Source: Intestinibacillus massiliensis
Lineage (GTDB): Bacteria > Bacillota > Clostridia > Oscillospirales > Butyricicoccaceae
Reading direction: 5' to 3'
Length of the DNA stretch: 46,625 bases
Assembly (NCBI RefSeq): GCF_900155735.1
Contig: NZ_LT707033.1
Location: 1-46,625, forward strand
Part shown: positions 1 to 37,122 of the stretch, piece after piece
How positions within the stretch are numbered: position 1 is the stretch's first letter
Layout: each line of letters opens with the position of its first letter
Program-made: the position numbers and the translations under genes
Notes under the pieces: generated by a model
What the model was told of the DNA's origin: nothing
What the model saw: the letters and a program-made list of their open reading frames with translations, nothing else
The model's database searches: none

Positions 1-2
1 GC

Positions 3-477: not shown

Positions 478-525
478 AGCGGCAAAGCGCCCGCAACCAA
501 AACTGGTTGCGGGCGCTTTGCCGCT
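478..525. terminator. Strong stem-loop terminator between convergent genes
   Basis: A perfect 22-bp inverted repeat (478-499 with 504-525) around the 4-nt loop AAAC. It lies between the rightward sugar-binding protein gene and the leftward larC, so it probably ends both transcripts. The T-tract on the plus side is weak (TATTGTGAGGTTTT). Confidence 0.75.
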
Positions 526-575
526 TATTGTGAGGTTTTCCCGGACGGGATACGCGGCAAGGCTGCCCCACCGCG

Positions 576-3287: not shown

Positions 3288-3354
3288 GTACGTTTCCTCC
3301 TGTATACGCGCCGACAGTTTCCCGTGCGGCGTACCCGCGCTTCGTATCGGGATG

Positions 3355-4482: not shown

Positions 4483-4673
4483 TATTGTACCTCATTTTTT
4501 CCTGTTCCGATAGTGTGTGATTTGTTTTATGGCCTGGCAAGGGTTTTGTCCAGGCAGGCAAGCGCGTTCCGGGCGCATGGGAAACCGGCTTACGGAAGGC
4601 ACACCGTCAGCGCGCCCGGCAGGGTATCCTTGCCGGGCACCTGCCGCTCATGTCCCGCAACCTGTGCTATCTC

Positions 4674-4705
4674 TATCTTGCACCTTGGAGTGCGCTCCAT
4701 GTCAA
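4674..4705 (-). promoter_or_regulatory. MerR-type promoter upstream of the aldo/keto reductase
   Basis: On the minus strand a consensus -35 TTGACA (4700-4705) is followed by the dyad TGGAGCGCACTCCA (4686-4699) and a poor -10 (AAGATA or CAAGAT, 4674-4680). That gives a 19-20 bp spacer, longer than normal. A TGGAG...CTCCA dyad inside an over-long spacer is the hallmark of MerR-family activated promoters. No MerR gene is in the window. Confidence 0.7.
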
Positions 4706-4921
4706 GCATTATTTTCACCCGGCTTCCGGGCATACCGCCCCCCTTGGTACGGGTAACGTATTTGGGACAGGCTGCTGCCAATGGGATTACATGGGCAGTA
4801 CCTTATGATACGCCAGCTTAAGTATGATGTGGCGTATCACGGCGGGGCAAACGGCTACGCGCATTATGTAAACAAAGGCCGCCAGTATTGCACCGGCAGC
4901 CTTTATATCCCGGATAATAGG

Positions 4922-4959
4922 GAAGGCCGGTCAAAGCCTCATGGTTTTGACCGGCCTTC
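4922..4959. terminator. Stem-loops downstream of the recombinase gene
   Basis: A 14-bp inverted repeat (4922-4935 with 4946-4959, arms containing AAGGCCGGTCAAA). A second hairpin sits just before it (4874-4883 with 4895-4904, arms AAAGGCCGCC/GGCAGCCTTT). Neither has a long T-tract. They probably insulate the recombinase transcript from the MerR-type promoter region. The rest of 4483-4978 shows no credible gene. Confidence 0.5.
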
Positions 4960-4978
4960 TAGCAATTGCACAGCTTAA

Positions 4979-6658
4979 TTAGCCGCGCGCAGCCAGACCC
5001 TGCTCGTAGGATTCAATCATCTTCTTGAACGTGTTACCCGAACGACGTTCGAGTTTCTCCAAGTAACGCGTCGTAGTTTCACCGGAAAAAACCCTGATTT
5101 CCAGCCGCAGCGTATCTTCCTCCGGCGTTACAAAGATGCGGTCGATATACTTTTCCACAAAGGCGCGCGTGATCATACCGTTTTCCGCATCCTGGACGGC
5201 GGCGCGCATCGTCTCACGAAGCTGCTGCAGATGCGCCTGCAATTCCGCGCGGCTGAGCTGCTGCTGTTCCAGCTCATACAGTTCCTGCTCGGCTTGGCTG
5301 ATTTCCCGGTCGCACGCGGCGTTCATGGAAAGAAAATCACGGTCGCTGATCTGTCCGGAAGCATTGTAGCCGAGCAGCTTACCCTTCTTCTTTTGGGCAA
5401 GCTCTATTTTTTGGTGAAGCGCATCCAACTGCACCACGACGCCGTTATCGTCGTTTTCCAGCGAGCGGTACATCTCCAGATAGCGTTCGATCAACGCCTC
5501 CGTATCCGCCCGCGTACCCTGGAATACGCTGAACAACACCGGCTTTAATTCGTCCTCATACAGCGGGACGGAGGGGCAGGAATCCGCGCCGTTTTTGATT
5601 TTGCCGGAACAGACCCATTTACTGTTCATATTACCCTGTTTGTCTTTGGAATCGCGGCGGTAATACGCCGTGCCGCAATGGGTACAAAACAGCTTCCCCG
5701 TCAGCAGGTTGCTGTGGTTACATTGGTTCTGACGGCGTTTTACATCGGTACTGCGCCGGGAGAGGACGGCGTTTGCTTCGTCCCAAAGCTGTTCGGGCAC
5801 GATGGCGGGTACGATGTCTCCGGTTTCATCCTTAAACATCACCCACTCCTCCGGCGGGAGGAATTTTTGTTTTTTGGTGAACATATCCACAATGCGCACC
5901 TTGTTGCCGACATAATACCCCTTGTACTTCGGATTGGAGATCATACCGGACATCGTTGTATGTGCGATACGCTTGCCGTTGTGGTTGCGGTAGCCCTTTT
6001 TCCAGAACAGGTCTTCGATCTGTTTCATACTGTATTCGTCGGTCGCGTACAGCTCAAATAACTTGCGTACCATCGGCGCTTCGTCCTCATCAATCACAAG
6101 GCGCTTGTCCTGCTTGCGGTAACCGAAAATACGGCCGTTACCCAAAACCACGCTGTTCTTGATCGCCTGCTGGTGGCCAAATTTTACGCGGGAGGACAGC
6201 TTGCGCAGTTCATCCTGCGCAATACCGGACATAATCGTCAGCCGCAGCTCAGAATCTTCGTCAAAGGTATTAATGTTATCGTTCTGAAAAAAAATGCCGA
6301 CCCCTGCGGCCAGGAGGTCGCGGGTATATTGAATGCTGTCCAGCGTGTTGCGCGCGAAACGTGTGATTTCTTTTGTGATAATCAGGTCAAACAGTCCGGT
6401 TCTGCCATCCTCGATCATGCGGTGAAAATTTTCGCGTTTTTTCGTGGTCATGCCGGAAAGGCCCTCGTCGATATAGCCCTCCACGAACGTCCATGCCGCG
6501 TTGCGCGCGATCAGATCGCGGTAGTAGCCGATCTGGTTGTCCAGCGAATTGAGCTGTTCATCGCTTTCACTCGAGACGCGCGCATAAAAGGTGACGCGAA
6601 GAGGAATATCATATACCGAGCGGGTCTTGAGCTGCTGCCGGATGCTATGGATGTCCAT
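4979..6658 (-). CDS. Large serine recombinase (site-specific integrase type)
   Basis: 559 aa from the ATG at 6658, chosen because GGGAGGG lies 7 nt upstream. Domain order: resolvase catalytic domain with the nucleophile Ser29 in FYARVSSESDEQL, the helix segment ITRFARNTLDS, then the Recombinase DNA-binding domain (about residues 160-290), a zinc ribbon starting LFCTHCGTAYYRR with a second pair of cysteines further on, and a C-terminal coiled coil rich in Lys, Glu and Gln. Length and order match integrases of Clostridia prophages and Tn4451-like elements. It appears intact, unlike the three other recombinases in the window, and lies at the border between GC-rich core genes and acquired DNA, so it may mark one end of an integrated element. 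Confidence 0.92.
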   Translation of the reverse strand: MDIHSIRQQLKTRSVYDIPLRVTFYARVSSESDEQLNSLDNQIGYYRDLIARNAAWTFVEGYIDEGLSGMTTKKRENFHRMIEDGRTGLFDLIITKEITRFARNTLDSIQYTRDLLAAGVGIFFQNDNINTFDEDSELRLTIMSGIAQDELRKLSSRVKFGHQQAIKNSVVLGNGRIFGYRKQDKRLVIDEDEAPMVRKLFELYATDEYSMKQIEDLFWKKGYRNHNGKRIAHTTMSGMISNPKYKGYYVGNKVRIVDMFTKKQKFLPPEEWVMFKDETGDIVPAIVPEQLWDEANAVLSRRSTDVKRRQNQCNHSNLLTGKLFCTHCGTAYYRRDSKDKQGNMNSKWVCSGKIKNGADSCPSVPLYEDELKPVLFSVFQGTRADTEALIERYLEMYRSLENDDNGVVVQLDALHQKIELAQKKKGKLLGYNASGQISDRDFLSMNAACDREISQAEQELYELEQQQLSRAELQAHLQQLRETMRAAVQDAENGMITRAFVEKYIDRIFVTPEEDTLRLEIRVFSGETTTRYLEKLERRSGNTFKKMIESYEQGLAARG

Positions 6659-6697
6659 TTTCGTGCCCTCCCCTACAAAAGTCATTGTATCATGTTT

Positions 6698-6726
6698 ATA
6701 ATATCACAGAATGTCTTTCATGGCAA
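6698..6726 (-). promoter_or_regulatory. Sigma-A-type promoter of the serine recombinase
   Basis: TTGCCA (6721-6726), a 17-bp spacer, and TATTAT (6698-6703), reading leftwards about 40 nt before the recombinase ATG. The spacer end ATTCTGTGATAT recurs in the promoter-like site at 45159-45173. Confidence 0.6.
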
Positions 6727-6891
6727 CAGCGGTCTGTTGACAGGAAAAATGAAGAGGTGTAAAATGTACGTAAAATTACATTGTTCCGTGTTTTTTGTTC
6801 TTTGTTCTCCAGGATACAGTAAAAAATATGTTTATAGCCGCACCATATTTATAAAATTAATAAGATATCAACATAAAAAGAAAGGCACGAT

Positions 6892-8133
6892 ATGGCAAAC
6901 AAATTGGGGGAAACGACAAGGTGTTGTTTATACCACTGGCGTTATGACGATCTGACAGAGGGCTGTTTTGTCGTGGATGACGAGACAGGCAAAGTAATAA
7001 AAAAACGTGTATTTGACAATAGGCATCGGGAATCAAAAAAAGATAGGATAAAGTATCAAAAGAAAGAAAAATCCGATGCCGATAAAAACGGGCGAACTTT
7101 TAAAACAAAAAAACTAAAACTCCATGTGGGCATCAATTACATTAAGCATTACCATTGTGAAGCTACACATATTAAGAACGGCTTAGAAGAATTTACAACT
7201 ATGCTATCTATTTGCGGCAGTGATGAGGTACAAAGGGCACAAGCCATTCAGCTGGTTAGCGGCCTGCTGTCTGCTTACATTGTACGAAAGGCGGCGAATA
7301 CAGGTGCGCTTGATGATTTTTCCAAACACAAATGGCGTGGGCTGATTTTTTCGTGTCCTTACAGTACGGGTGCATTCGAAACGATTGCCCAAATTGTAGC
7401 AACCGTTTCCGTGGATACTATTTATCAAAACAAGGGGGCTGATTTCCTCGTCTCCGCATCTGTGCTTTTACCAGATAGGGCGGTCTCAAAATCCCTGGCA
7501 GGCGATGCGGTAATTTATTTTAATGGAGGCACCCAATGTCATAACAAAAAATTTGCGCTTCCCGCACAATATCGGGATACTTGTGTCTTGATAGATGGCC
7601 GAGCATATTCTACAGGGGATATCCGAAACTTTGAACGGCGTAATTTGTGGAATACAATCGTCGTATATGGCAAACCTGCATCGGTCTCACTTGTTGATAC
7701 TATTCCACTGAAAAGTGAGTCCTTTGGAGAAAATCATCTAAAATTTAATTACAAGCCTGTACGCAAGCTATGTCGAGGCTTTGCTGGTTGGATCGGAAAC
7801 ATGAAAAAAAAGAAGTTTTCTAAAACATTGCAAAATGTATGGAACGATCTGCTAACATATAATTGCGCATTCCGCACCGCGCGTATTAAACGCGGCGATT
7901 TGTACCACACTTTTTTGCAAGTGTCTGCTCTAACATTATTTTTGAATTACATTTCTATGTTCCTACCGTATTGGATACAAAGAAAAAGCCCTTCTTCGGC
8001 ACATAAAATACCGAAAAATGGCATAAACCAAGGGCTTTCGAGGTCAATCGCTGACTTCGGAAGCCCTTATTTGCTTTATGGAATTGTGGTATGCCGGCCG
8101 GCTGCACGATGCAGTGTCAACCTTGCGGTGTAG
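6892..8133 (+). CDS. Protein of unknown function whose C-terminus runs into a repeat
   Basis: 413 aa, not recognised. The start ATG has AAAGG 6 nt upstream. The N-terminal third is Lys-rich and hydrophilic (residues about 35-85); the middle contains LVSGLLSAYIVRKAANTG and a probable mixed alpha/beta region (DTCVLIDGRAYSTGDIRNF). About the last 60 codons (from 7954) are encoded by repeat copy 1, which also occurs at 8754 outside any gene, so they are unlikely to be native protein sequence. The original C-terminus may have been lost when the repeat arrived. The gene converges on the leftward defence cluster. No function can be assigned. Confidence 0.5.
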   Translation: MANKLGETTRCCLYHWRYDDLTEGCFVVDDETGKVIKKRVFDNRHRESKKDRIKYQKKEKSDADKNGRTFKTKKLKLHVGINYIKHYHCEATHIKNGLEEFTTMLSICGSDEVQRAQAIQLVSGLLSAYIVRKAANTGALDDFSKHKWRGLIFSCPYSTGAFETIAQIVATVSVDTIYQNKGADFLVSASVLLPDRAVSKSLAGDAVIYFNGGTQCHNKKFALPAQYRDTCVLIDGRAYSTGDIRNFERRNLWNTIVVYGKPASVSLVDTIPLKSESFGENHLKFNYKPVRKLCRGFAGWIGNMKKKKFSKTLQNVWNDLLTYNCAFRTARIKRGDLYHTFLQVSALTLFLNYISMFLPYWIQRKSPSSAHKIPKNGINQGLSRSIADFGSPYLLYGIVVCRPAARCSVNLAV

Positions 8134-8157
8134 TGAAAATCGAATAATTAAAAGGTG
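7954..8157. repeat. Structured 204-bp direct repeat, copy 1
   Basis: About 92% identical by eye to 8754-8956. The core is a 17-bp stem (left arm from 8031, AAGGGCTTTCGAGGTCA; loop ATCGC; right arm ending CCCTT). An upstream AAAGCCCTT can pair with the left arm instead, giving two mutually exclusive folds. On the plus strand the two imperfect pairs are G-T, which RNA tolerates; on the minus strand they would be A-C. On the minus strand it lies 27 nt after the stop of the 8185 gene, where it could act as a terminator. Confidence 0.85.
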
Positions 8158-8184
8158 AAAAGAGTGGATGTCGAAAACATTTAC

Positions 8185-8727
8185 TCACTCCTCTTTGCCC
8201 TTTCCTCCGCGAGGATACGGTGCTTTATCTCTCCATTCAACACCATTCTTGGTGTGATACCTCTGCGAATGCCATGGAACTTCATGTTCACGTGGAGACG
8301 ATCGTTCTCTGCTGTCCGAGTGAGGCGAGCTGTAGCTATCGTCGTCAACAGCATATGACTTCTTATCATCTGTTGATGAGTCGCTCCTCACATCATCAGG
8401 GTGAGGTGTTTCCTTGGAACTATTACCAGAAGATGTTGCTGCATCAATTATTGCAGGAATTGTTGTCACCAAAAACGTGATGACGCCACCAACAATCTCT
8501 CCCTTGTGGTCGCGCCACAACTGTTTGGCTGTGTTTCCAACACCAGTAAAAAAATGCTTAACCCCATCGGGCTTCATAGCATTCTTTTTAAGAGGTGGCT
8601 GATGGGCTGTACCTGTAGAATCAGAATGCTCAAACTGCCTTGGGGTGCTTTCCTTCACCGGTGGTTCTGCATATAAAGACTCAGCGGACTCAGTGGATTC
8701 GGCCGCACAGTCTGTTTCTTCATTCAC
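8185..8727 (-). CDS. Small single-pass membrane protein of unknown function
   Basis: About 180 aa from a GTG at 8727, chosen because GAGGTGG lies 5 nt upstream; an in-frame GTG at 8736 is possible. The protein is low in complexity: an acidic, Ser/Thr-rich N-terminal part, one predicted membrane helix (EIVGGVITFLVTTIPAIIDA), then a Ser/Asp/His-rich, probably disordered tail ending in PRGGKGKEE. The gene lies exactly between the two direct repeats and reads in the same direction as the defence cluster. Together with the repeat behind it, it looks like an inserted unit. I do not recognise the family. Confidence 0.5.
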   Translation of the reverse strand: MNEETDCAAESTESAESLYAEPPVKESTPRQFEHSDSTGTAHQPPLKKNAMKPDGVKHFFTGVGNTAKQLWRDHKGEIVGGVITFLVTTIPAIIDAATSSGNSSKETPHPDDVRSDSSTDDKKSYAVDDDSYSSPHSDSRERSSPREHEVPWHSQRYHTKNGVEWRDKAPYPRGGKGKEE

Positions 8728-8753
8728 CCCAACCACCTCTGCAATAGGTTGGC

Positions 8754-8956
8754 TCTATGTTCCTACCGTATTGGATACAAAGGCAAAGCCCTTATCCGGC
8801 ACAGAAATACCGAAAAAGGGCATAAAACAAGGGCTTTCGAGGTCAATCGCTGACTTCGGAAGCCCTTGTTTGCTTTATGGAATTGTGGTCTGCCGGTCGG
8901 CTGCACGGTGAAATGTCAGCCTTGCGGTGTAGTGCAAAGCGAATAATTAAAAGGTG
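8754..8956. repeat. Structured 204-bp direct repeat, copy 2
   Basis: Same element as 7954-8157, with about 17 differences by eye, most of them outside the long central stem, which is identical in both. On the minus strand it starts 10 nt after the stop codon of the 8967 gene and ends shortly before the GTG of the 8185 gene. After the stem the minus strand reads GTTTTATG, so transcription termination is plausible. Confidence 0.85.
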
Positions 8957-8966
8957 GAACAGTATC

Positions 8967-9509
8967 TCATATATACAGCCATCTATTGCCATCCCAGTAA
9001 GGTTGTTCTTGATTCCGGGACTCATGCAATTCGTCAAACAAATTAAACGCTACCACCCTTGCCGTGTCGAAGTCGGTAATCTTTCTGCCGTGATACTCCC
9101 AACGCTGAGTTCCTTTGAAAATAATACCCCAGCCTGAGCCGTATTTGCTCTTCATGATAGTAATATAGTCGCCCTTGTAGCGTAGTGTAAAGTTGCCGGT
9201 TTCGGGCTTACGATACCACTCTTGTTTCATGAAGTTTTTCCTTCGGTTTACACGGTTTTTTAGGTTACGCTCTCGTTCTTGAGGAGTCACATAATCGCAT
9301 ATCATTTTTGAAGCACAATCGCATCCTACTCTTATCTCGCCATCATAGTCGGGGTGTTTAAGCAGATGGACATATCGGATTTTTTCCTTTCCACACATTT
9401 CGCATTGCTCATACGGAATAGGTTCATCAGGGTAAACATTCTCCCCCAAATCCTCCATCCCAATATAATCCCACCCCTTATGTGGAATATCTGGTTTATT
9501 CCAACGCAA
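8967..9509 (-). CDS. Zinc-ribbon-like protein of unknown function in the defence cluster
   Basis: About 180 aa from a TTG at 9509, supported by GAGGGGTG 6 nt upstream; other TTG/GTG codons up to 9527 are possible. Near the N-terminus are two cysteine pairs, CEMCGKE and VGCDCASKMICDY, separated by about 25 residues; this spacing suggests a metal-binding ribbon. A basic stretch follows (RERNLKNRVNRRKNFMK), then a Trp/Tyr-rich beta region ending in WDGNRWLYI. It is the last tightly packed gene of the leftward cluster, about 15-30 nt after the preceding gene, and repeat copy 2 follows at once. A nucleic-acid-related role is only a guess. Confidence 0.6.
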   Translation of the reverse strand: MRWNKPDIPHKGWDYIGMEDLGENVYPDEPIPYEQCEMCGKEKIRYVHLLKHPDYDGEIRVGCDCASKMICDYVTPQERERNLKNRVNRRKNFMKQEWYRKPETGNFTLRYKGDYITIMKSKYGSGWGIIFKGTQRWEYHGRKITDFDTARVVAFNLFDELHESRNQEQPYWDGNRWLYI

Positions 9510-9541
9510 CAAAATCACCCCTCGCAATAATCATATTGGTC

Positions 9542-9848: not shown

Positions 9849-11441
9849 TTATTCCGTGCCGGTCATCACCGGCAGATTTTTGGATACCAACATATCGTTA
9901 CATTCGTGAATTGATCCCATGTAAAGGTGGTTAAGAAAGAAATTATACATCAAGTGAGCCTCGTTCTGTGCCAATCGCAATGTAAAGCCAGATCTACTGA
10001 TAAGTGCATTACTCAACTCTGGCGGCAGATTCATACCAATACACACAGCAACCACACAGTCAACATTTTTGGGGTATGCCGGATTGTTTCGCATACGCTG
10101 AACCAACTTTGTGGAAATAAGAGCCTTTTCTGCCAGGGTCTCTTCGGAGATTTCTACCCATTCCATAAGGTAGAGCAAGGCGGCACCAAATTGGGCTGCT
10201 AGTTCTTGAAGAACTCGTTGAATCTCCATTTCTCGTGCAAGGATGGCATCTGCTTTTCCCATAACATCAGCGCTGACCTCTTTGGCAAAAGTGGTCTGGA
10301 ACACAATGCCAGAATCCACATCTCTAAAGAGAACGCACTCTTTATAAAATTCCTCGCCGTATTTATTCGTTGCCTTTACTTTCAGTTTGAAGACCAGGCA
10401 ACATTCATCAATGTGCAAACGACCATACTCGGTCATCTTCACAGTATTATTTTCGTCCCTGGTGACATACTTCGGATCGTTCAAACACATATGCGAATCC
10501 ACATATATGTATGAGCCCTTTTGAGATTGAGCAGAAAGGCGCATATCGCTGAAGGCGATGATTTGGGCATCGTCCGCGCTGATACAGTATGTCTGGTCTT
10601 TCTGCAAACTGCCTTTTTTGAAGGCGTGTGGTTTTACATAGTGTCCGTCAATATAAGTAAACGCACCGATAGCCTCTTCGTAGCCTGCATCCACCATACG
10701 CATTTTTGCTGCATGGCGTGAGACAACAAAAAAGGTAGCGAGGGCATCAATGACAGCCTCCATCACATCCACGATATGTGCTGCATTCATTTCCCGTTGG
10801 AATATACGGACAAATTCGGCAGCTTTTGTCTTAAACGCACCTATCGGCATCTGGATGCGAGGTGCCAGCGAGTTTGCCTGCCACTCCATCCAATCAGCGG
10901 CGGTACGGTCGGAAGAACCCTTTGACCCGCCAATGACCATGCACTTTATTTGTGTTGCATCGCGGTTATAAAGCCGCTCCAGTTCAAAGGCTTTTCTGTG
11001 CTGATCCCAATGGACGCACTCATGTACGATGGTGTTGTTGACAGAACCCAGATTCCTTAAATGGAATGCTTTGGGGGCTACAACGATGGTTTTTGCCGGA
11101 AAGTGAGCAGCTTCCACTTTTCCCGTGGCAGAGTTAAATACTTCTGTGGTACAGTCTTGGAAGAAAATCTGTCCAAATACAGAAAAATCCTCCGTCAGTT
11201 CCTGGGTAACAACCGAAAGACCGAGCCTATCGGCAAAAACCATAGGGTCAATAGGCATAGGGGTTTGCAGGGCTTCTGGGTAGTATTTTCGCAAAAACTC
11301 CGTAGCTATCTTATCGAGGTCGATTTTATAACTAATCGGAACAAGGGAATCTGACAAAGGTTTGTATTGCTTGTTCTTTTGATTGTATTGATCAACTCGA
11401 AGGATACGGAGGTCATCCAGATTTTTGGATAAATCAGCCAT
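9849..11441 (-). CDS. ImmA/IrrE-like metallopeptidase with C-terminal XRE domain (second part of a split gene)
   Basis: 530 aa from ATG 11441. A zinc-peptidase motif HECVH is at residues 140-144. The C-terminal region (about residues 440-490) contains a helix-turn-helix of the XRE kind (ETLAEKALISTKLVQRM), followed by a tail similar to that of the protein at 11757. ImmA/IrrE proteins are sensors or proteases that cleave XRE repressors of mobile elements. The ATG overlaps the stop of the 11434 gene by 8 nt (ATGGCTGA). As I recall them, full-length Clostridia homologues begin with the sequence now encoded by that upstream gene, so the two probably are one protein split by a frame change. No ribosome site precedes this ATG, so translation would need coupling or frameshifting. 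Confidence 0.82.
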   Translation of the reverse strand: MADLSKNLDDLRILRVDQYNQKNKQYKPLSDSLVPISYKIDLDKIATEFLRKYYPEALQTPMPIDPMVFADRLGLSVVTQELTEDFSVFGQIFFQDCTTEVFNSATGKVEAAHFPAKTIVVAPKAFHLRNLGSVNNTIVHECVHWDQHRKAFELERLYNRDATQIKCMVIGGSKGSSDRTAADWMEWQANSLAPRIQMPIGAFKTKAAEFVRIFQREMNAAHIVDVMEAVIDALATFFVVSRHAAKMRMVDAGYEEAIGAFTYIDGHYVKPHAFKKGSLQKDQTYCISADDAQIIAFSDMRLSAQSQKGSYIYVDSHMCLNDPKYVTRDENNTVKMTEYGRLHIDECCLVFKLKVKATNKYGEEFYKECVLFRDVDSGIVFQTTFAKEVSADVMGKADAILAREMEIQRVLQELAAQFGAALLYLMEWVEISEETLAEKALISTKLVQRMRNNPAYPKNVDCVVAVCIGMNLPPELSNALISRSGFTLRLAQNEAHLMYNFFLNHLYMGSIHECNDMLVSKNLPVMTGTE

Positions 11442-12571: not shown

Positions 12572-14044
12572 TTACAAGAATAAGGTTTGAATATCGATTT
12601 TCGAATTTTCAATGTAGTGCCGATACATCAGTTCTGCAGGCAGTAATCGCACTTGGATGTCCTGCAGTCCTAAATTGCTTAACATAGCAAAAGAAACAGT
12701 ACCTATTGGAACAATCTCCCTCAAAGCCGTGGGCATAAGGAAACAGTTACGCACCGTGCTAATCTGATGCGCCTCTACAAAGGGCTGATACGCCAACTTG
12801 TACAAATACTGCTTAGTTATGGATTCAATACCGGGCTGGCCACGCAGCTTCTTATTGTGTTCCAACTGGATGTTATAATACTTTGCATCGAAAATAACAA
12901 ACTGATAGTCTTCGTTGATATTGACAAGAGAAACGATGTCTGGGATAAGCGTGTCCTCTGCCAGCTTTGCAAACGGCTCACCGCTCGGTGCAGTTCCAGT
13001 CCACTGCGGTTTATCAATCAAATCAATGAGTTTCTTATGCCGCATATCGCAGTATTGCTCTGCTAACGGTACAGGCAGTCGCAGTCCGCCGATTGGCTTA
13101 TGCAACTGGTTGTCCATTACTTCTGCACAGACCTTTTCCCATACAAGATTGAAGCTATTTGTGCCGAACATACTGAAACAGTCGAGATCGTCCAGTGTAC
13201 TGCTGTTGGCTATGTAGGCATACAGCGTTTTCAGCAGAAGCTGTTTGCGGGTATTGAACTGGACATTGAGTTCTTTGACAATGCGATCTAGGACATACTC
13301 CTTGTCACCAAAGTCTTCGATATGCTCATCAGAAATATCGACACCCATAATATCGAATAAATCTAACAGATCGGCATCTCGTAATTCCTCCGTACAGCGG
13401 GTGAGTATACACTCATGCAGGCGCTTGAAGAAATCGAAATCGTCATTCACTCGCTTCATGGTCAACAATTCCGGGTAATACGGCCGGTTGTTGCTTAAAA
13501 GTGTGAATGTTTCGTTGATGGTCTTATCCCAAAGAATGTCGCCGGACCCGTTGGACTCGATGATATCCTGCGTGTTGGTATAGGCACCATACTCGAAATA
13601 ATCCTGGAGGAGGAACAGCATAACAGCCAACATATTAAATGCACTGCTGTCACTCGTATCGTTGTACATACGAATGATTTGTTCCTTGGAATTGTACTTT
13701 TCCAAAACCTTCAGCACTTGTTTCAGTTCTGCTTTAGGAGCCGTGGCATCAAGCAGATATTTCGGATAGCATTTCAACACACGACCCTCAATTGTAATAA
13801 CGCCCACAAAAGTAAACACATACAGATATTCGTTTTCGCCGACCTCAACATCGGCGATTTCTATGTCCTCATCCAACAAATCAGTGAGATCCTTCTGTGT
13901 GTCATTTGCTTTTACGGCCTTCAGAACGCCATATTCTTTCAAGCGCTTCAGAATGCGAACAGTCTTTTCCTCGGAGCAACGAAACTCTTTAACCAGGTCT
14001 TCCTGGGTATAGCGTTTTTGTTCTTGTAAAAATACTGAAATCAT
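12572..14044 (-). CDS. LlaJI/McrC-like restriction endonuclease subunit
   Basis: 490 aa. The overall sequence resembles LlaJI R2, the McrC-like nuclease partner of a McrB-type GTPase. A winged-helix N-terminus (YTQEDLVKEFRCSEEKTVRIL) is followed by a long helical region. Near the C-terminus lies a PD-(D/E)xK active site: Pro368-Asp369 in TLIPDIVSLV and Asp386-Ala-Lys388 in FVIFDAKYYNI. The start overlaps the McrB stop codon (ATGA). In LlaJI of Lactococcus two C5 methyltransferases and two restriction subunits form one operon; the same set is present here. Its recognition sequence cannot be read from the DNA. Confidence 0.85.
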   Translation of the reverse strand: MISVFLQEQKRYTQEDLVKEFRCSEEKTVRILKRLKEYGVLKAVKANDTQKDLTDLLDEDIEIADVEVGENEYLYVFTFVGVITIEGRVLKCYPKYLLDATAPKAELKQVLKVLEKYNSKEQIIRMYNDTSDSSAFNMLAVMLFLLQDYFEYGAYTNTQDIIESNGSGDILWDKTINETFTLLSNNRPYYPELLTMKRVNDDFDFFKRLHECILTRCTEELRDADLLDLFDIMGVDISDEHIEDFGDKEYVLDRIVKELNVQFNTRKQLLLKTLYAYIANSSTLDDLDCFSMFGTNSFNLVWEKVCAEVMDNQLHKPIGGLRLPVPLAEQYCDMRHKKLIDLIDKPQWTGTAPSGEPFAKLAEDTLIPDIVSLVNINEDYQFVIFDAKYYNIQLEHNKKLRGQPGIESITKQYLYKLAYQPFVEAHQISTVRNCFLMPTALREIVPIGTVSFAMLSNLGLQDIQVRLLPAELMYRHYIENSKIDIQTLFL

Positions 14045-15984
14045 TCTCCATCATCCTCTGGGAAATTATCAATAAACAGACTGCTGATTCCTTCGCAGAA
14101 AATATAAACACCCTTGGTGTCAAATTCCCTGCAAATCTTGGAATACTGGTTCTTTGCCTTCTCATCGCAGCCGCCGAACAGCGTAATGCGCTTCTGTTTT
14201 GCGGCATCATCAAACAGGTACATAATGACCTTGTTCTTAAAAATACGGGTGAAGACGGCAGGGTCAATCATTTCGCCATCTGGCAGATTCTTCTTGGAAA
14301 TGAAATACGGACCCATCAGCTTATCCTCGTTCACCTTGTAAGTGAGCAGTTCATTATTGATAGCCTTGCGGAGCGCATTCCATTCCACAATGCGGCGATA
14401 ATCACTTTGACCGAGGATGACCTTTTTGCCAACGATTCCGGCTTCACTATCATCGATGCCCAAATAGGTGAAATCCCATCTGCGCTTAAACGCCGTATCC
14501 ATCGGGAATACGCCCTGGTCAGCACTGTTCATGGTGGCCCAGATAAACATATTGTCTGGGATGCGGATTTCAGCGTAATCGTCGGGATTGCCGCCGAGTT
14601 CTCCTGCCAGATACTTTTTGATGTCCTCGGATGCCTGAATCGGATATTCGCTGACCTCGTCATCACCACGGTCAAGCAACTGGAATACATCACCGAACAC
14701 GGCAGCGACATTGGCACGATTGATTTCCTCGATTACAAGCAGGAAAGGTTTGGGGGCATCAGTTCTGCTGTTCAGGAGGGCTTTCACATAAGTACGCATG
14801 AACGGACCAGGTACATAGGAATAAGTGATGGCATCCTTGCCATCGCTGTCCTTGCAAGGCACAGGTTTATATGTACCGACAAAATTGGCGTAGGAGTAGT
14901 CCGGGTGGAATGTCACACGCTCGTATTCGCCACCATCAGTCAGCAGGATGTCTTTTTCACAGTTCAGAGTAAAACTTTTACCAGTTCCAGGTGCGCCAAA
15001 GAGAATGCGGTTACGAGCAAATTCACTCTGATAACCTGTGTTATAATGTATTTCTTGCACAACGCTTCTCTGCTCGACCAAAAAACGTTTATATAGATCC
15101 AAGCCAGCAGACAACGAGCCATTACCGCGATTGCGGTTAAATTCCTCAAAACCATCATCTGCCTTAATAGCTGCCTCTGCTCTTTCAAACACTTCAATAT
15201 CATCGATCTCAAAAATGGACGAGAAGGGGGCGATAGCATCCCCAAAAGTTGTGCTCACCGCTCTCAAGGCGCTAATGTACTGATTCCTGGTATTTTCCGA
15301 GTAGTGTTCGCCGTTATCCCTTTCTAGTTCTTCAAACCATGCCTTAAAGGCTGCTTCATTGTCAATAGAAGCGTCAGGCAATGGCTCGTTGTGATTTGCA
15401 AGTTCAGTTACGAGAGAACCATGAATCCATTCTGCATTACGAATATAAAAATACATGAACTCTTTGCGAAAAGCGCAGGCATATTCACCAGAGCCTTTAT
15501 CTTGCTGCACAAATCCCTCTTTCATTGCTTGGGCAATTGTCGCAATTTTGATTTGTTTGGAGATGGGGGTTTCTGCTCCGGCAGTTGAAGATTTCAGCTT
15601 CCATGCGCAAAAAATCGTCTGACCGTCACGCCTGTAAACGCCTAATTGAACTGCTAAATGACCGCTTTGCATTTGACCAAAAGCATAGTTGATATATTTG
15701 CTTTTTTGCTGAGTGCGCTGTTCATCGTTCAAATTAGAACGACCTCCAGGTGTTGTGCCTTTAGCACAAATGATGACTTTATCTTGTTCAGTCTCTTCAA
15801 AAGTGACTTCATATACCTCGGACAAATTATCACTGACTGATTCGCAGTGTACAATATGACCGAACTGCTCAAATGCTGACAAAAGTTCGGTTCGAACTTG
15901 TTCAGATGAAAGAGAATCTGTTGCCCGATTATAGTCAGCAGATACAATTTCGCCGTTACCAAGCGCCCATTGATATTCTGGCAT
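14041..15984 (-). CDS. McrB-like AAA+ GTPase subunit of restriction system
   Basis: 647 aa; AAGGAGGG precedes ATG. The N-terminal region (about 1-185) looks like the MrcB_N/DUF3578 domain that reads DNA. The AAA+ motor follows: Walker A GAPGTGKS at 330-337, Walker B FLLVIEEINR at about 414-423, the McrB-type GTP signature as MNSAD at 485-489 (NTxD in the classical enzyme), and arginine finger residues in AFKRRWDF. McrB proteins translocate on DNA with GTP and activate the McrC-type nuclease, here the 12572 product, with which it overlaps by 4 nt. It corresponds to LlaJI R1. Confidence 0.9.
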   Translation of the reverse strand: MPEYQWALGNGEIVSADYNRATDSLSSEQVRTELLSAFEQFGHIVHCESVSDNLSEVYEVTFEETEQDKVIICAKGTTPGGRSNLNDEQRTQQKSKYINYAFGQMQSGHLAVQLGVYRRDGQTIFCAWKLKSSTAGAETPISKQIKIATIAQAMKEGFVQQDKGSGEYACAFRKEFMYFYIRNAEWIHGSLVTELANHNEPLPDASIDNEAAFKAWFEELERDNGEHYSENTRNQYISALRAVSTTFGDAIAPFSSIFEIDDIEVFERAEAAIKADDGFEEFNRNRGNGSLSAGLDLYKRFLVEQRSVVQEIHYNTGYQSEFARNRILFGAPGTGKSFTLNCEKDILLTDGGEYERVTFHPDYSYANFVGTYKPVPCKDSDGKDAITYSYVPGPFMRTYVKALLNSRTDAPKPFLLVIEEINRANVAAVFGDVFQLLDRGDDEVSEYPIQASEDIKKYLAGELGGNPDDYAEIRIPDNMFIWATMNSADQGVFPMDTAFKRRWDFTYLGIDDSEAGIVGKKVILGQSDYRRIVEWNALRKAINNELLTYKVNEDKLMGPYFISKKNLPDGEMIDPAVFTRIFKNKVIMYLFDDAAKQKRITLFGGCDEKAKNQYSKICREFDTKGVYIFCEGISSLFIDNFPEDDGE

Positions 15985-15996
15985 AGGTATCCCTCC

Positions 15997-17349
15997 TTAT
16001 TCGAAGACTTTTATATGCTTTGCATTCAAAGACTCACGATTGAAAATATCTAATATTTTTGTGGGTTCCTCAATAATTGCATCGATATCCGAACCCTCGA
16101 CCATTATGATGCATAGGTTCATCGCTCTCATAATCTGATTGGCATACTCTCTAGCAGTTTCGGATACTGTGCCTGTTGTCATTATGACAATGGCATTTGT
16201 TCTTAAAACATGAGACAGCCCCACTTCTTTGGCAATCTGATCAAGAGACACTCTGTTTGTGTTTTTGCACTGAACCTGCCATCTGGTATATAACAACCGA
16301 CTGGAATCAAAGAGGACATCAACCTCTGCGCCTGCTGTTTCGCTTCCTTTGAGGCGTGTCTGAATAAAATCCAGGCCGATTATTCTCATGACTTTTATAG
16401 CAAAAGCCTCTAAAGCAAGTCCTTTCAAATGAGTACTGTCAGAATTCATATCCTCTCTGAGTTCAGAAAGGGGCTTTTGAAGGTGTTCTACTATTTCGCT
16501 TTCGGTTTTTCCTTCAAGTTGTTGCAGGGTAGGTAAAACAATTTCCCGCATTGTCAATTCCGTCATTTTAATTAACGGAGTTCTAGCGCCATGACCTTCG
16601 GTGGTTCTTTGTACTTCAATGAGACCTTTCTGCTGCAATGGCTGAATGACTGCCTGAGAAAAATTACTTTGACCAAAGGCAATACCATATGTAGCTGTTG
16701 CCAATCTTCGGATATCCGCCGCCTTTTGGAATTCCAATGTATGGGTGTTACATAATGCACGCAGAAAATAGTATTGCTCCGAGTTCAGCGTTTTTAATAA
16801 TCTAAACTCTGCCTCGGTTAATTCAGTAAGTTCACTTAACCTGTGTTCGTCAATTCGCCATGCCTGTAAAACCCCTGCTTTGGCTAACCACAACTTCATA
16901 ACAGGAATATTGTTGGATGTCTGGCTCAGTTCAAATCCATTTGCGTTTAATTTGGCGGCAACAGTTTCCTTGGTTATTTTCTCTCCGTTACGCTTCATAC
17001 TGCGTAATGTATCGATAAGCACCATACCATTCAAATTTTTCAATATGTGCTTAACTAGGGTTTCGCACTGCTCAGATTCATCTCTGATGCTGTGTAGCCG
17101 ACGTCCGAATTCTGTGAAATGTACGCCACCGCCAGATTCCATAATTCCGTAAGATACCAAGGAGTTTTTGCAGTTTCCTGCCATAGTACGACGCTCTCGT
17201 TCGGCCTTATTGCTAAAAAAAGCAGCTACAATTGCATCGATTAACGGAGCGGTTTCATCTCCTTCGTTTTCAGAAACCAGTTGCAACAATTGAGACAAAT
17301 CAATTTGATTGGGAGAAAATTGTGTGCCGAAAGGTAATGTATTAGGCAT
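15997..17349 (-). CDS. Mrr-like restriction endonuclease with N-terminal helical/winged-helix region
   Basis: 450 aa; the site AAGGAGGG overlaps the end of the upstream methyltransferase gene. Residues 1-300 contain several winged-helix-like segments (for example SLVSYGIMESGGGVHFTEFG). Residues about 308-430 form an Mrr-type PD-(D/E)xK fold: GLALEAFAIKVMRIIGLDF, then Asp344 in AEVDVLF and the QxK motif Gln360-x-Lys362 in WQVQCKNT. Mrr nucleases usually cut modified DNA or act as effectors of composite systems. It lies between the two methyltransferases and the McrB/McrC-like pair. As I know it, LlaJI has no such gene, so this is an addition to the standard set. Confidence 0.8.
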   Translation of the reverse strand: MPNTLPFGTQFSPNQIDLSQLLQLVSENEGDETAPLIDAIVAAFFSNKAERERRTMAGNCKNSLVSYGIMESGGGVHFTEFGRRLHSIRDESEQCETLVKHILKNLNGMVLIDTLRSMKRNGEKITKETVAAKLNANGFELSQTSNNIPVMKLWLAKAGVLQAWRIDEHRLSELTELTEAEFRLLKTLNSEQYYFLRALCNTHTLEFQKAADIRRLATATYGIAFGQSNFSQAVIQPLQQKGLIEVQRTTEGHGARTPLIKMTELTMREIVLPTLQQLEGKTESEIVEHLQKPLSELREDMNSDSTHLKGLALEAFAIKVMRIIGLDFIQTRLKGSETAGAEVDVLFDSSRLLYTRWQVQCKNTNRVSLDQIAKEVGLSHVLRTNAIVIMTTGTVSETAREYANQIMRAMNLCIIMVEGSDIDAIIEEPTKILDIFNRESLNAKHIKVFE

Positions 17350-17351
17350 AG

Positions 17352-18410
17352 TTATCCCTCCTTAAAGTACTGTTCAGCTATTGCAGTTGCGATTTGAGCA
17401 ACAAGGTGCGGAGGAACAGCGTTACCGATTTGTCGCCATTGATCCTTAAAGTCACCGCAAAATTCGTAATCATCATCAAACGTCTGAATGCGCTTGATTT
17501 CATTAATGCGAAGAAAGCGATTTTTCCAATGGAAAGGCCCCATATTGTTAGAGAAACTTGCCTGGATTGTCCACGAAGGTTTTTCAGGAGAAAGTTTCAA
17601 CAGGAACGACCAATAGCGAGATCTCCACTTGAAAATGGGTTCAGGATAGCCACGTTCTGCAGTGAAATACAGATAATTGTCGCCGGGAGGAACGAGTTTG
17701 AGAAGATCTTTATGCTTTGAACCAGCCTGCATATCCTTATCTTCAGGGAGGTCATAGTCCAAATCACCAATAGCATCACCACAGGTAACCCAAGGTTTCT
17801 TTCCTAATGCAGCATCGCCACCAGGTTTTTCAGGGTTAAAGTGTGTCTCCTCGGGAAACACGAATGGTTTGCCGATGTCTCGTCTAACGCCAATGCAAAT
17901 GAAGCGCTCTCTAATCTGAGGAACACCATAATTTGCGGTGTTGATAACCTTAAAGCTTATATCATAACCTAGGGTATCAGCGCGTTCTTTCAGAAGATCA
18001 AATGCAGCTTGGTGAGGTTTATAAACAAATCCAAACACATTCTCGAAGAAGAATACCTTGGGGCGAATTTCCTCAAGTGCTCGGAAATACTCATACAGAG
18101 TAAAGGAGTTCTCGTCTTCGAGTGCACGTTTCTTGTCAGTTCTGTAAAATCGCGATTTTGAATACGCGGGGCACGGAGGACCTCCCGCTAATACATCGAT
18201 GTCTTTTACGGTCAATCCGATCTTTGCCAACTCATCAGCATAGTTGACAGTTTGGATGTCAGCACACTTTACTAGTTGACCGACCTTGTTTCTTTCAAGC
18301 GTATCACAGGCCGGTTTCCAAAAATCAGTGGAGAAACAGATATCAAACCCAACTCGCTTAAAGCCACAGTCGATTCCACCACCGCCAGAAAAAATACTTA
18401 ATACTCTCAT
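17352..18410 (-). CDS. DNA (cytosine-5) methyltransferase, second of a pair
   Basis: 352 aa. The C5-methyltransferase motifs are in order: motif I FSGGGGIDCGFKRVGF, motif IV GGPPC with catalytic Cys80, motif VI FENV at about 122-125, motif VIII VPQIRERF and motif X QIGNAVPPHL. Motif IV reads PPCPAYSK, slightly unlike its neighbour (APCQPFSK), so the two enzymes are diverged rather than recent duplicates. The two probably methylate opposite strands of an asymmetric site, as in LlaJI. The start overlaps the stop of the first methyltransferase (ATGA). Confidence 0.92.
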   Translation of the reverse strand: MRVLSIFSGGGGIDCGFKRVGFDICFSTDFWKPACDTLERNKVGQLVKCADIQTVNYADELAKIGLTVKDIDVLAGGPPCPAYSKSRFYRTDKKRALEDENSFTLYEYFRALEEIRPKVFFFENVFGFVYKPHQAAFDLLKERADTLGYDISFKVINTANYGVPQIRERFICIGVRRDIGKPFVFPEETHFNPEKPGGDAALGKKPWVTCGDAIGDLDYDLPEDKDMQAGSKHKDLLKLVPPGDNYLYFTAERGYPEPIFKWRSRYWSFLLKLSPEKPSWTIQASFSNNMGPFHWKNRFLRINEIKRIQTFDDDYEFCGDFKDQWRQIGNAVPPHLVAQIATAIAEQYFKEG

Positions 18411-19468
18411 CCGTCTATGCTCTCTTTCAAAAATTCTATCATCGCCTTGCCCATAAGAGAAGGCACGGCATTACCTATCTGCTTTTGCACGGATCTCCTG
18501 TTGCCGTAGAACTTATAGCCTCTGGGAAAGGATTGAATAGCAGCAATTTCAGGCACACGCAGTCTACGATTATCCCAATGGAACGGTCCTACCCATGGGC
18601 CAGGTTGAGCAGTAATAGTCCAAGAGGGAACATCTGGAGACAACTTAAGGAGAAAACTCCAAAACCGTTTATCTGCAACAAACTTGGGGTTGGGGTATCC
18701 ATACCAAGCGGTCAATGCCTTATAATTCATTCCAGGAGGTACCTCACATAGGTCCGCATGGTAAGTGCCGCCCTCTGTCCTTTCTTCGGGTTCGAAGTAC
18801 TCCGGCCCATCAAAACCAGCGATTACCTCGCCAACTGGAACATATGGCAACAAGCCGGTCCGTACACATTCATCAGGAGGGCAGTGAGTCTTTCTGGGTT
18901 CCTCTGTCTTGAACTCACCAGTAGTTCCGATTATAAAAAGTCTTTTTCTTCTTTGCGAAACACCATAATCAAGTGCGTTCGCTTTTACAATTTTATACTT
19001 ATAGCCGTGCTCAGTAATGATTTCTATAAAGCAATCAACAATCACTTTGTTTGTCGGGTGAAGAAGACTTTCAACATTCTCAAAAACGAAACCGTCAGGG
19101 TGCAAGTCTGTAACTACGCGCAAATACTCATCCACAAGAGTTGCTCTGGGATCATTGATACCTCTACGTGTATTATTACCAACCCAATAGCCTGCTTTGG
19201 AAAAAGGCTGGCAAGGCGCTCCTCCAATTACGATGAATTTGTCATGAGGGGTTCGATTGACAATATCCATAAACACTTGGCTATCAATTTCATGCAAATC
19301 TCCATGGATTACTTCGCTGTCTTTATAAAGGTCATTCATTTTTAATGTTTTGATGCAATCAGCATCAAAGTCTGTGCTAGAAGCAACAGGGACTCCAGCC
19401 ATGAAACTAGCTACATCCAGTCCACCTGCTCCAGAAAAAAGGCTGATTGCAATAATTTTCTTACTCAT
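18407..19468 (-). CDS. DNA (cytosine-5) methyltransferase, first of a pair
   Basis: 353 aa. Motif I LFSGAGGLDVASFMAG, motif IV GGAPCQPFSKAGYW with catalytic Cys86, motif VI FENV (129-132), motif VIII VSQRRKRLF and motif X KQIGNAVPSL are all present. It is the first enzyme gene after the small XRE regulator, 16 nt downstream, and has only a weak ribosome site (AGGTG), so its translation may depend on the upstream gene. It should protect host DNA against the restriction subunits encoded further on. Confidence 0.92.
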   Translation of the reverse strand: MSKKIIAISLFSGAGGLDVASFMAGVPVASSTDFDADCIKTLKMNDLYKDSEVIHGDLHEIDSQVFMDIVNRTPHDKFIVIGGAPCQPFSKAGYWVGNNTRRGINDPRATLVDEYLRVVTDLHPDGFVFENVESLLHPTNKVIVDCFIEIITEHGYKYKIVKANALDYGVSQRRKRLFIIGTTGEFKTEEPRKTHCPPDECVRTGLLPYVPVGEVIAGFDGPEYFEPEERTEGGTYHADLCEVPPGMNYKALTAWYGYPNPKFVADKRFWSFLLKLSPDVPSWTITAQPGPWVGPFHWDNRRLRVPEIAAIQSFPRGYKFYGNRRSVQKQIGNAVPSLMGKAMIEFLKESIDG

Positions 19469-32825: not shown

Positions 32826-32865
32826 GCTTTTAGAGTGATATATAGTGTCGGAAAGGAGTGATTTT

Positions 32866-34642
32866 ATGCGTAAAATCAGTAAAATCGAAAACAAAATACC
32901 GCATATTCCGAGCCGCAAAAAGGTCGCTGCCTACGCCCGTGTTTCAATGGAGTCCGAGCGTTTGCACCACTCCCTTTCGGCACAGATCAGCTACTACAGC
33001 GACCTCATCCAAAAGCACCGCGATTGGGAGTATGTTGGAGTCTACGCTGACAACGGCATCTCCGGCACCAGAGCAGAAGACCGTGCAGAGTTCAATCGGA
33101 TGCTGGCTGACTGCGAAGCCGGGAAGATAGACATTGTCCTCACAAAGTCCATTTCACGCTTTGCCAGAAACACGGTCGACCTTCTGGAGACGGTTCGCCA
33201 TCTCAAGGAGCTGGGCATCTCCGTCCGCTTTGAAAAGGAACGCATTGATTCCATGACCGAGGACGGCGAATTGATGCTGACCCTTTTGGTATCCTTCGCC
33301 CAGGAAGAAAGCCGCAGCATTTCCGACAATGTGAAATGGGGGACGAGAAAACGCTTTGAACAGGGCATCCCCAACGGACGGTTCAATATCTACGGTTATC
33401 GCTGGGAGGGCGACCACCTGGTCATTGAGCCGGAGGGAGCCGCCATTGTCCGGCTCATCTTTGATGACTTCCTGGCAGGGCTTTCGGCAGAAACCACCGA
33501 AAAGAAACTGGCCGAAATGGGAGTCAAATCCTACAAGGGTCAGCGCTTCGGGAACACATCCATTCGCCAGATTCTTGGCAACATCACCTATACGGGAAAC
33601 CTGCTTTTTCAAAAGGAATATGTGGTAGACCCCATCAGCGGCAAGAGCAAAAAGAACTACGGTGAGCTGCCGTAGTATTTCGTAGAGAACACCCACGAGC
33701 CGATTATTCCGATGGAGGTCCACCAGGCGGTGCAGGCAGAAAAAGCCCGCCGCAGAGAACTTGGGGTGTTTGCCAACTGGAGCATCAACACCTCCTGCTT
33801 CACCAGCAAAATCAAATGCGGTCACTGTGGTTCCAGCTTCGTGCGGAACACCCGCAGGAACAGAGCCAAGCACAAGGCTCCACATGACTCGGATATGTAC
33901 ACCACCTACGGCTGCGGAACGCAGAAAAAGAAAGGCGGCTCCTGTCCGGCAAAGGACATCCGAGAGGACATTCTCCGAGAGAAGTGCGCCGAGGTGCTGG
34001 GGCTTGCCGAATTTGACGAGGAAGTGTTCAGTGTCCAAGTGGAGAAAATCATCGTGCCGGAACACGGGGTTCTGGAGTTCTACATGACGGACGGGCAGAT
34101 TATCCGCACCACCTGGCAGTCCACGGCAAAGAAGGATTGCTGGACGGATGAGCACAGAGCCGCCAAGGGTCGGTATGTGCAAGAGCATCAGCTTGGCCCC
34201 AACTCCTCCTGTTTCACCAGCCGAATCCGCTGCGACCACTGTGGGGAGAATTACCGCAGGCAACGCTCCCGCCGCAAGGCTGGCGATTATGTGTCCGTCT
34301 GGCGGTGTGCATCCGCTGGCAACTGCGACAGCCCAAGTATAAAGGAGGAAACGCTCAAAGAGTTTTGTGCCGAGGCTCTGGGGACTGACGGTTTCGATGA
34401 GACCGCCTTCAGAGAGCAGATCGCCTGCATCCACATCACCGCACCCTTCCCACTCTCCATCCACTTTTTTTGACGGACACACTTTTGAGGGCGAATGGGA
34501 AAACAAGCGGCAGATGCCAAAGCACAGCGAGGAACGCAAAGAACACATGAGACAGAAAATGATTGAGAATTGGAGGAAAAGACGTGGCGAAAGTAACGAC
34601 CATTCCGGCAACGATCAGCCGGTTCACAGCGACACCGATTAA
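32866..34642 (+). pseudogene. Large serine recombinase A, broken by TAG and a T-run frameshift
   Basis: AAGGAG lies 6 nt before ATG. The catalytic domain starts KVAAYARVSMESERLHHSL (nucleophile Ser in ARVS) and includes TKSISRFARNTVDLLETV. A TAG at 33673-33675 after ELP replaces an expected Gln codon; the frame continues YFVENTHEPIIPMEVHQAV with zinc-ribbon cysteines (KCGHCGSSFVR, later RCDHCGENY). A second lesion, seven T at 34465-34471 instead of six, causes a stop; one base fewer restores the tail (DGHTFEGEWENKRQMPKHSE) to 34642. The catalytic domain may still be made as a 269-residue fragment. Confidence 0.85.
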
Positions 34643-36519: not shown

Positions 36520-37122
36520 ATGATTATTTCCGAAAAACTCCCAGAAGCAGATCCAAGCCAATACCGGGCGCAAATCTTGAATTGCCTGCTGCCAGATTAT
36601 CTCGACCTGCCCAAGGACACACGTCCAGTTGAACAACGCGACACGTTTACTACGCACGATGCACAAGATATATTTAAATTTGTACTGAAGAAAATTTTGA
36701 TACCAGATAACTTTAACCGTTATTTGCGTGTAGAGGCGCACGGGTTATTCGACCAGGAGTATCCCGATAAATCTGATTATAAATACTGGGGCTATATTAA
36801 AACATATCAAGATAAGCAAAGTAAAACTAGCTTTTGTGCACTGTTATTTCGGGAAGACGAATTTATTGATTTGATAAAAACACATTTAGAAGAATGTGAT
36901 CCAAAACAAATTATAAAAGATGTTAAGAAAGAAAAACCAGCATATCTGCATCCAACGGGCAAGGCCCGTATGCCTGTTCATAAAGCAGACCAATCCACCG
37001 TTAATGCGATAATACTAAAAATCGACAAACTGGATTTCATTGAGGAAGACATGCGGAATGCCCTGATCACCGGCGAGGCACCAGATTCCGAAATACCGAT
37101 TGATGGGTCACAGCATCAGTAA
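36520..37122 (+). CDS. Protein of unknown function
   Basis: 200 aa from ATG 36520; no convincing ribosome site precedes it, and a GTG at 36460 is possible, so the start is uncertain. The protein is hydrophilic with mixed helices and strands (DIFKFVLKKILIPDNFNRYL, KLDFIEEDMRNALITGEAPD). No motif is recognised. The base composition is AT-rich compared with the prophage genes, and it is separated from them by a terminator, which suggests another origin. Confidence 0.5.
   Translation: MIISEKLPEADPSQYRAQILNCLLPDYLDLPKDTRPVEQRDTFTTHDAQDIFKFVLKKILIPDNFNRYLRVEAHGLFDQEYPDKSDYKYWGYIKTYQDKQSKTSFCALLFREDEFIDLIKTHLEECDPKQIIKDVKKEKPAYLHPTGKARMPVHKADQSTVNAIILKIDKLDFIEEDMRNALITGEAPDSEIPIDGSQHQ

Follow-up and report, generated by a model that had tools for sequence, protein, structure and literature searches.

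Attachment ends of a probable serine-recombinase phage family in Intestinibacillus massiliensis and its relatives, and cassette arrays on related sites

Prophages integrated by large serine recombinases (LSRs), such as those of the phiC31, A118 and SPbeta kind, have a ~50-bp phage attachment site (attP) with imperfect inverted arms around a central dinucleotide, an integrase gene near one end, and a target gene that rejoins on their removal. We analysed a stretch of 46,625 nucleotides from Intestinibacillus massiliensis (contig NZ_LT707033.1, positions 1 to 46,625; hereafter the window), in which an element of ~207 bp occurs twice in the same orientation (copies A and B, Table 1). This element is very probably one of the two ends of an LSR-integrated temperate phage of the 'Ca. 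Heliusvirales' type. The family is like the prophages above in all of these points, and differs from them in having two LSR genes in a row and a long conserved end region, in a target that is often a protein motif conserved across unrelated methylase genes, and in defence cargo located at the end away from the integrases.

The staphylococcal cassette chromosome (SCC) has one fixed chromosomal target. SCC and the Enterococcus cassette chromosome, with CcrA and CcrB, also combine two LSRs, variable cargo and ~50-bp attachment sites, and differ from the present family in being described, in the portions of the source consulted, without single-gene arrays having full attP-like sites between the genes (PMC6222049). 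Streptococcal integrative and conjugative elements (ICEs) with serine integrase triplets disrupt hsdM, traG and mutT, with 2-8 bp repeats, and so share with our family adjacent LSR genes, hsdM disruption and very short repeats; those elements are conjugative and have triplets, whereas here phages carry an LSR pair, and the hsdM site is not stated as motif I in the sections of that report considered (PMC4701971).

In the mechanism that we propose, the ends of the circular phage would meet as a ~48-bp attP in which a pair of imperfect inverted arms encloses a central GA/TC. Integration at a host GA would split this site and leave an end at each border: RE (~207-236 bp, the element described here) on one side and LE (~90 bp) on the opposite side. 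The RE would comprise an attP half-site and hairpins presumably able to stop transcription out of or into the prophage, and defence genes would be loaded directly inside it, which would account for the apparent position of the element behind a gene. Its conserved motifs, TTGCGGTGTA and AATAATTAAAAGG, have counterparts in the LE, which in some loci reads ..ACACCGCAA..TTTTTAATTATTCC..TTTGTATCAAACT..GATTAT.TC up to the border, with motifs related to those of the RE and the arms reversed.

A cryptic prophage of 28.6 kb spans 7954-36530, and copy A is recognisable as its left attachment end. Both copies start abruptly at a TC dinucleotide, and copy A interrupts the rightward open reading frame (ORF) 6892-8133. 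When the segment is removed in silico, ORF 6892-7953 resumes in frame at 36529, yielding a gene of 551 codons; the rejoined gene has no NCBIfam match, and uninterrupted homologues spanning the junction without a stop are present in 5 of 393 other genomes, at 22-31% identity. In genome G415, that of Anaeromassilibacillus sp. An172 (labels in G and L denote genomes and loci), the cores lie 55,744 bp apart and the rejoined flanks form a continuous methylase frame, ..FSEGSILEPSCGTGNFF.., cut at ILEPSCGTGNFF, while in the phage record PV036420 the ends lie 56,481 bp apart and the rejoined flanks form one open frame of 984 residues, ..GLTFLDPACGSGNFL.., cut at FLDPACGSGNFL; both rejoined genes are DNA methylases cut at S-adenosylmethionine (SAM) motif I. 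All three cases thus present two borders with a common 2-nt core and flanks that rejoin to an intact gene, as in LSR prophages.

An LSR gene lies inside the element and adjoins one border. PV036426, PV036420 and G415 each have two consecutive LSR genes before the LE, Int-a (~580 aa) and Int-b (523 aa), and the pairs of G415 and PV036426 are 96% and 100% identical over their aligned parts; the Int-b of the window is shortened relative to these by one in-frame stop. A relative of Int-b with at least 73% identity was found in 4 of 17 genomes searched, with an LE 0.07-3 kb from each (0.3 kb in the window, 2.9 kb in G415, 0.1 kb in G416 and 1.1 kb in G405), and G409 and G412 have an LE and no such relative in that search. 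The two ends with their core, the rejoining of the genes in frame, the pair of LSR genes beside the LE and the varied cargo are read directly from sequence, and the recombination is most likely carried out by Int-a and/or Int-b. Separately, contig C28 of G415 (3478-8411) carries three consecutive LSR genes, like the streptococcal ICE integrase triplets.

Table 1. Coordinates of the features discussed, in the window unless a locus label is given
Feature	Position	Strand	Remarks
Copy A	7954..8160	+	left phage end (attL, phage side); sharp border at TC 7954-7955; cuts ORF 6892-8133
Copy B	8754..8960	+	putative second, internal phage end; core TC 8754-8755; truncated ORF 8185-8736 on its left
Opposite phage end (attR, phage side)	36444..36530	+	core TC 36529-36530; 74% identical over 87 nt to the counterpart at L050 (E 3.7e-8)
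Interrupted host gene, 5' part	6892..7953	+	frame rejoining; homologues found
Interrupted host gene, 3' part	36529..37122	+	frame rejoining; homologues found
Int-a, N-terminal piece	32845..33675	+	82.5% identical to PV036426 Int-a residues 1-269; phrog_95 integrase
Int-a, C-terminal piece	33712..34473	+	65.7% identical to PV036426 Int-a residues 283-531
Int-b, 447 aa	34563..35906	+	Resolvase, Recombinase and zinc ribbon; 83% identical to PV036426 Int-b
Long hairpin, copy A	8030..8068	+	terminator-like by scan
Long hairpin, copy B	8826..8870	+	terminator-like by scan; 20 pairs counted
Terminator-like hairpin for leftward transcripts	7992..8018	-	terminator scan; of the two copies, copy A only
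ORF between the copies	8185..8736	-	5' end cut at core of copy B
Small gene ending at copy B	8967..9527	-	33% identity over 157 aa to an ORF of the G415 prophage
Defence cargo	12572..19468	-	LlaJI-like restriction genes, Mrr-type nuclease, two C5 methylases
Array stretches with 48-bp sites	L090:5958-7973; L091:7190-9349; L092:1-883; L093:9375-11514; L022:3303-6109

The genes between copy A and the LE include an exonuclease, DNA polymerase A, a D5-type primase, a helicase, an HNH protein, a terminase small subunit and the recombinases, the terminase small subunit being the virion gene found in the window among the ORFs tested. The replication genes are 72-92% identical to those of the G415 prophage, and the window shares the LSR pair and both ends with PV036420 and PV036426, the two phage records matched by the element in blast searches, both of which are named 'Ca. 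Heliusvirales'. From a SAM-synthetase-like ORF (31281-31769) to Int-a the window has only 1.1 kb (31769-32845) as against ~25.8 kb in G415, and the genes before the LSR pair in PV036426 and PV036420 include those for tail, head, holin and endolysin; for these reasons the prophage of the window is most likely a deletion relic. A term search of the main text of the Heliusviridae paper, as far as that text was covered, gave no mention of integrase or recombinase (PMC9226167).

The source genome has no third copy of the element, the remaining match being that of the hairpin to its own complement, and a sequence search did not find the element in 59 near relatives. Blast detected it in 18 of the 394 genomes of the order (including the source genome; several matches are partial) and in no plasmid; the loci in bacterial genomes are counted by the sequence of the end alone. 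A pattern of its inner part, CTTGCGGTGTA..AATTAAAAGG, occurs in 17 stretches among the genome contigs, all 17 of which align to the element, and hairpin-pattern scans of viral contigs returned the prophage of the window itself and one further contig (L007). Across the aligned loci the outer border reads TC.ATGTTCC (in some TCTATAAA) and the sequence outside is unrelated, while on the inner side AATTAAAAGG is followed, often after 17 nt, by the 3' end of a leftward gene. One and the same gene adjoins the RE at equal distance in nine loci (encoding a DUF4357 protein in the two tested), and other loci differ; the element is thus preceded by many different genes, not found in single copies always behind the same one. 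A fixed outer border with varied inner genes implies that the RE is the end of something larger, with cargo directly inside. A miniature inverted-repeat or other small transposon of 236 bp was also considered and was dropped, because the inner side continues into lineage-dependent genes and the nine loci share the same neighbour at the same distance.

The defence neighbourhood reported in the initial annotation is real, the leftward genes of the window including a LlaJI-like type II restriction system and two C5 methylases. Among ten RE-adjacent proteins at seven loci chosen from those at hand, eight match PADLOC models, with a match at six of the seven loci: type I (L010), type II (L005, L014, the former LlaJI-like as in the window) and type III (L016, L006) restriction, Hachiman HamB (L013) and methylases; the two proteins without a match are L011:741-2954 and L006:298-2916. 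Within the cargo of the window, the proteins of 9849-11567 and 11757-12557 (both on the minus strand) have a common C-terminal region (29% identity over 116 aa), and the former has a weak capP match (1.4e-5).

On the strand of the interrupted genes, the motif [DE][PY]xCG reads directly at the GA core in 12 of 30 junctions. This count comprises 28 listed junctions plus the full end of L022 and L035, neither of which reads motif I; it leaves out the window duplicates, L016 and L045 (border at a contig end), loci where an RE follows an LE directly (L012, two of L022, L031, L037, L038, L046, L047, L053, L065 and L069), and partial matches without an outer border (such as L036, L039-L041 and L048). 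When ten flank translations were compared with Pfam, all eight that start with the motif matched models of DNA methylases, in seven cases N6_Mtase, with the alignment starting at model position 52; the other two are a methylase cut elsewhere (L024) and a transporter (L009). Some non-methylase junctions also lean towards GANCC....TG(C/T)GG, and because they share this DNA trend, the LSR probably reads the DNA, which the protein motif supplies. A survey of thousands of predicted LSR target sites, in the parts considered, reports multi-targeting LSRs that likewise reach several target genes via a loose DNA motif, and states that targets are not enriched in or around anti-phage defence genes (PMC10083194). 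The family described here is different in repeatedly striking methylase genes, and its targeting thus runs against that published non-enrichment, as far as the source was covered (PMC10083194).

Copies A and B, whose starts are 799/800 bp apart, are 91-92% identical (E 5.9e-79). We infer that copy B is best read as the outcome of a nested integration followed by a deletion: a second related phage, with copy B as its RE, would have entered ORF 8185-8736, the last gene of a first phage with copy A as its RE, and a later deletion would have taken the body of the first phage and one LE, leaving an 800-bp remnant. The outer flank of copy B starts exactly at the core, inside this ORF, with what we call the B-type sequence, GA followed directly by GCCAACC. 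A like course is known from the accretion of cis-mobilizable elements, where, in the sections of the source consulted, a decayed element keeps its attachment site and a later one enters beside it; here the second site would lie inside a gene of the first element (PMC5704250).

The phage end and a flanking gene might instead have been duplicated locally, with no second integration. This alternative is unlikely but has the closeness of the copies in its favour, as these are each other's nearest relatives (91% identity versus at most 76% to the 22 others, among 24 sequences compared). However, 9% divergence over 207 bp speaks against a recent duplication, and a flank that starts at the core with B-type sequence fits an integration junction and not a random border. 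Considerably less probable is that RE, ORF and core form a true mobile cassette, moved by the LSR as one-gene circles, so that the two copies with the ORF between them would be a one-cassette array within the prophage. Full 48-bp sites do flank single genes elsewhere, where cassettes differ exactly at the GA between two congeneric genomes, and the orientation here—gene, terminator-like end, core—matches those arrays, but the 800-bp unit lacks the LE-type half that a cassette would need as its second end, copy B has on its outer side a B-type half-site and a truncated ORF, and this ORF has no Pfam, NCBIfam or PADLOC match and no tblastn match in phages or plasmids. On our reading, the border of a relic prophage here encloses a second such border, and the cassette array that had been suggested is not shown for this locus.

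The initial annotation had described two structured copies directly behind leftward genes, with a common 17-bp stem and a 9-nt competitor for one of its arms, and this description holds: the genes end 24-27 nt (8185) and 6-10 nt (8967) from the copies, depending on the end assigned to each, and the competitor AAAGCCCTT (7985-7993) is able to pair with AAGGGCTTT (8030-8038). The stem is continuous only as plus-strand RNA, via G-U pairs, and is broken up in minus-strand folds; against 200 shuffles the folds have z-scores of -3.8 (copy A, minus strand), -7.75 (copy B, minus strand) and -5.2 (copy B, plus strand). The plus-strand hairpin, a G+C stem followed by a T run, is terminator-like in both copies and at L021 and L009, which in part supports the suggested terminator. 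The small RNA suggested alongside it gained no support, as a scan of the window gave no Rfam match at the element and two-sided changes occur in 1 of 27 consensus pairs (24 sequences), a weak covariation. The suggestion of a recombination site fared best, the element being, on the evidence above, a phage attachment end. The sole Rfam match in the window is a DUF2800 RNA (RF02960, 20127-20284, plus strand, 144.6 bits) ahead of early phage genes.

These structures bear on two further readings. The end of an RNA-guided transposon was considered first, as the 5' part of the relatives appeared to be the tail of a short ORF and the plus strand folds well, and was dropped in view of the defence flanks and the LSR genes at the other end. 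The element would then be a right end whose RNA serves as the guide scaffold (TnpB omegaRNA, IscB, or IS110-type bridge RNA), and the short coding-like tail of some copies, the strong fold, the sharp outer border and the subterminal inverted arms would agree with it; we nonetheless hold it to be very improbable, given that defence genes adjoin the element, that the LSR genes lie at the opposite end, that Rfam and the two-sided changes offer nothing for such an RNA, that the coding-like tail spans 20-25 codons and is different or closed in the copies of the window, and that no such transposase or nuclease is among the proteins scanned, although no dedicated search was made. An ordinary terminator or regulatory RNA after defence operons, with which the plus-strand hairpin would agree, is scarcely tenable, as conservation extends past the hairpin to a fixed border with unrelated flanks, and genes rejoin at that border.

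Several observations weigh against the identification of the element as the end of an LSR-integrated phage, or against parts of it. Both LSR genes of the window are interrupted, so that this copy is unable to move by itself, and its own LE and RE arms have only a slight edge in pairing (17 of 23 positions versus 14-16 for mixed pairs). In the window the interrupted target gene encodes no methylase, and its site, which departs from the DNA trend at the core, may be a secondary one; 18 of the 30 junctions do not read motif I, and the short flanks of PV036426 (51 and ~55 nt) contain no methylase motif. The minus-strand hairpin, for which the terminator suggestion stands at copy A and L021, is absent by scan in copy B and L009. 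Finally, the case for nested integration is purely anatomical, and no other locus among those seen has two full RE copies 800 bp apart.

Two further serine recombinase genes lie outside the prophage, at 4979-6685 and 45207-46094 (both minus strand), the product of the latter being weakly similar to CcrA/B/C models; their presence suggests that the interrupted gene is surrounded by at least one outer mobile element. On the right-hand side of the prophage, 40603-44911 (minus strand) holds a restriction gene of type III along with an N6/N4 methylase, possibly cargo of such an outer element.

While the cassette idea fails at this locus, it led to an integron-like arrangement in other genomes, where gene cassettes do lie between full versions of the site. 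Integrons use a tyrosine recombinase and single-strand hairpin attC sites. An LE that meets an RE directly forms a 48-bp site, GTATCAAA-N15-GA-N15-TTTGATAC, which with exact arms has nine occurrences in 5 of the 394 genomes of the order, as against none for a reversed control pattern and none in 348 genomes drawn across the phylum. The full LE-core-RE sites of other genomes lie within arrays, and in G286, G341, G206 and the genome of L022 they stand between single genes, which encode acetyltransferases, a NUDIX protein, a HAD hydrolase, a GNAT-NUDIX fusion and a cysteine-rich protein of 124 residues without a Pfam match. Like integron attC cassettes, these arrays consist of promoter-poor single genes with a structured site behind each and precise gain and loss; unlike them, they are built on double-strand sites of LSR type, centred on GA, and in those examined no integrase gene lies nearby. 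A shufflon in hsdS was considered for L022, whose full site is in frame with an HsdS-like stretch, and was dropped, because other full sites flank acetyltransferase, NUDIX and HAD genes. Beside the cassette array of G206, L093 (~1-6700) carries what appears by eye to be a CRISPR array (repeated FQVIPPRGGY reading frames) with probable cas genes.

Between G286 and G341, which belong to one genus, cassettes are gained or exchanged exactly at the GA. After one acetyltransferase gene both genomes read ..TTGTATCAAAATCGCAAAGAACATAGA, and G286 then continues directly with the next chromosomal gene, while G341 has one extra cassette, with the same 27 bp at its end, ahead of that gene. At another position the two are identical up to AACATAGATAT, followed by a HAD cassette in G286 and a NUDIX cassette, up to the contig end, in G341, whose array is split over two contigs. 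The precise gain or loss of single genes at a site, characteristic of integrons, is therefore seen in these arrays and not in the window. Among the ORFs listed around the arrays, judged by eye and not all identified, there is no LSR gene; across whole genomes, LSR matches number 1 in G206, 3 in G414, 4 in G360 and 12 in G070, with only fragments in G286 and G341 (frames of 171 and 106 residues), and no Int-b relative was found at E values up to 1e-60 in G286, G341, G206 or G414. Our guess is that a visiting phage of this family moved the array cassettes.

What is new about the family of this element is its targeting, together with the arrays linked to it; the literature searched, with most subscription papers outside its coverage, contains no description of motif I as an LSR target or of cassette arrays on LSR sites. 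As a tentative proposal, to which we give slightly less than even chances, gut bacteria of this order carry integron-like arrays built on 48-bp LSR sites instead of attC, whose cassettes (acetyltransferase, NUDIX, HAD and other single genes) would be moved in trans by the integrases of phages sharing the site; the same phages would insert into the catalytic motif of resident DNA methylases while bringing their own restriction or other defence systems, and one event would swap defences. If true, this would be a second, independent evolutionary route to integron-like gene cassettes, and the clean double-strand sites of the arrays would be usable as tools. It would further mean that the integrase of a widespread group of gut phages reads the DNA for a SAM-binding motif common to unrelated methylases, so that a landing site would be on offer in almost every host or rival mobile element that has a methylase gene of this sort. 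In HsdM-like and MmeI-like genes, loss of the methylase also stops restriction. With targets mainly of these kinds, insertion would be safe for the host while the phage brings its own defence genes, which would provide a testable route for the turnover of defence systems.

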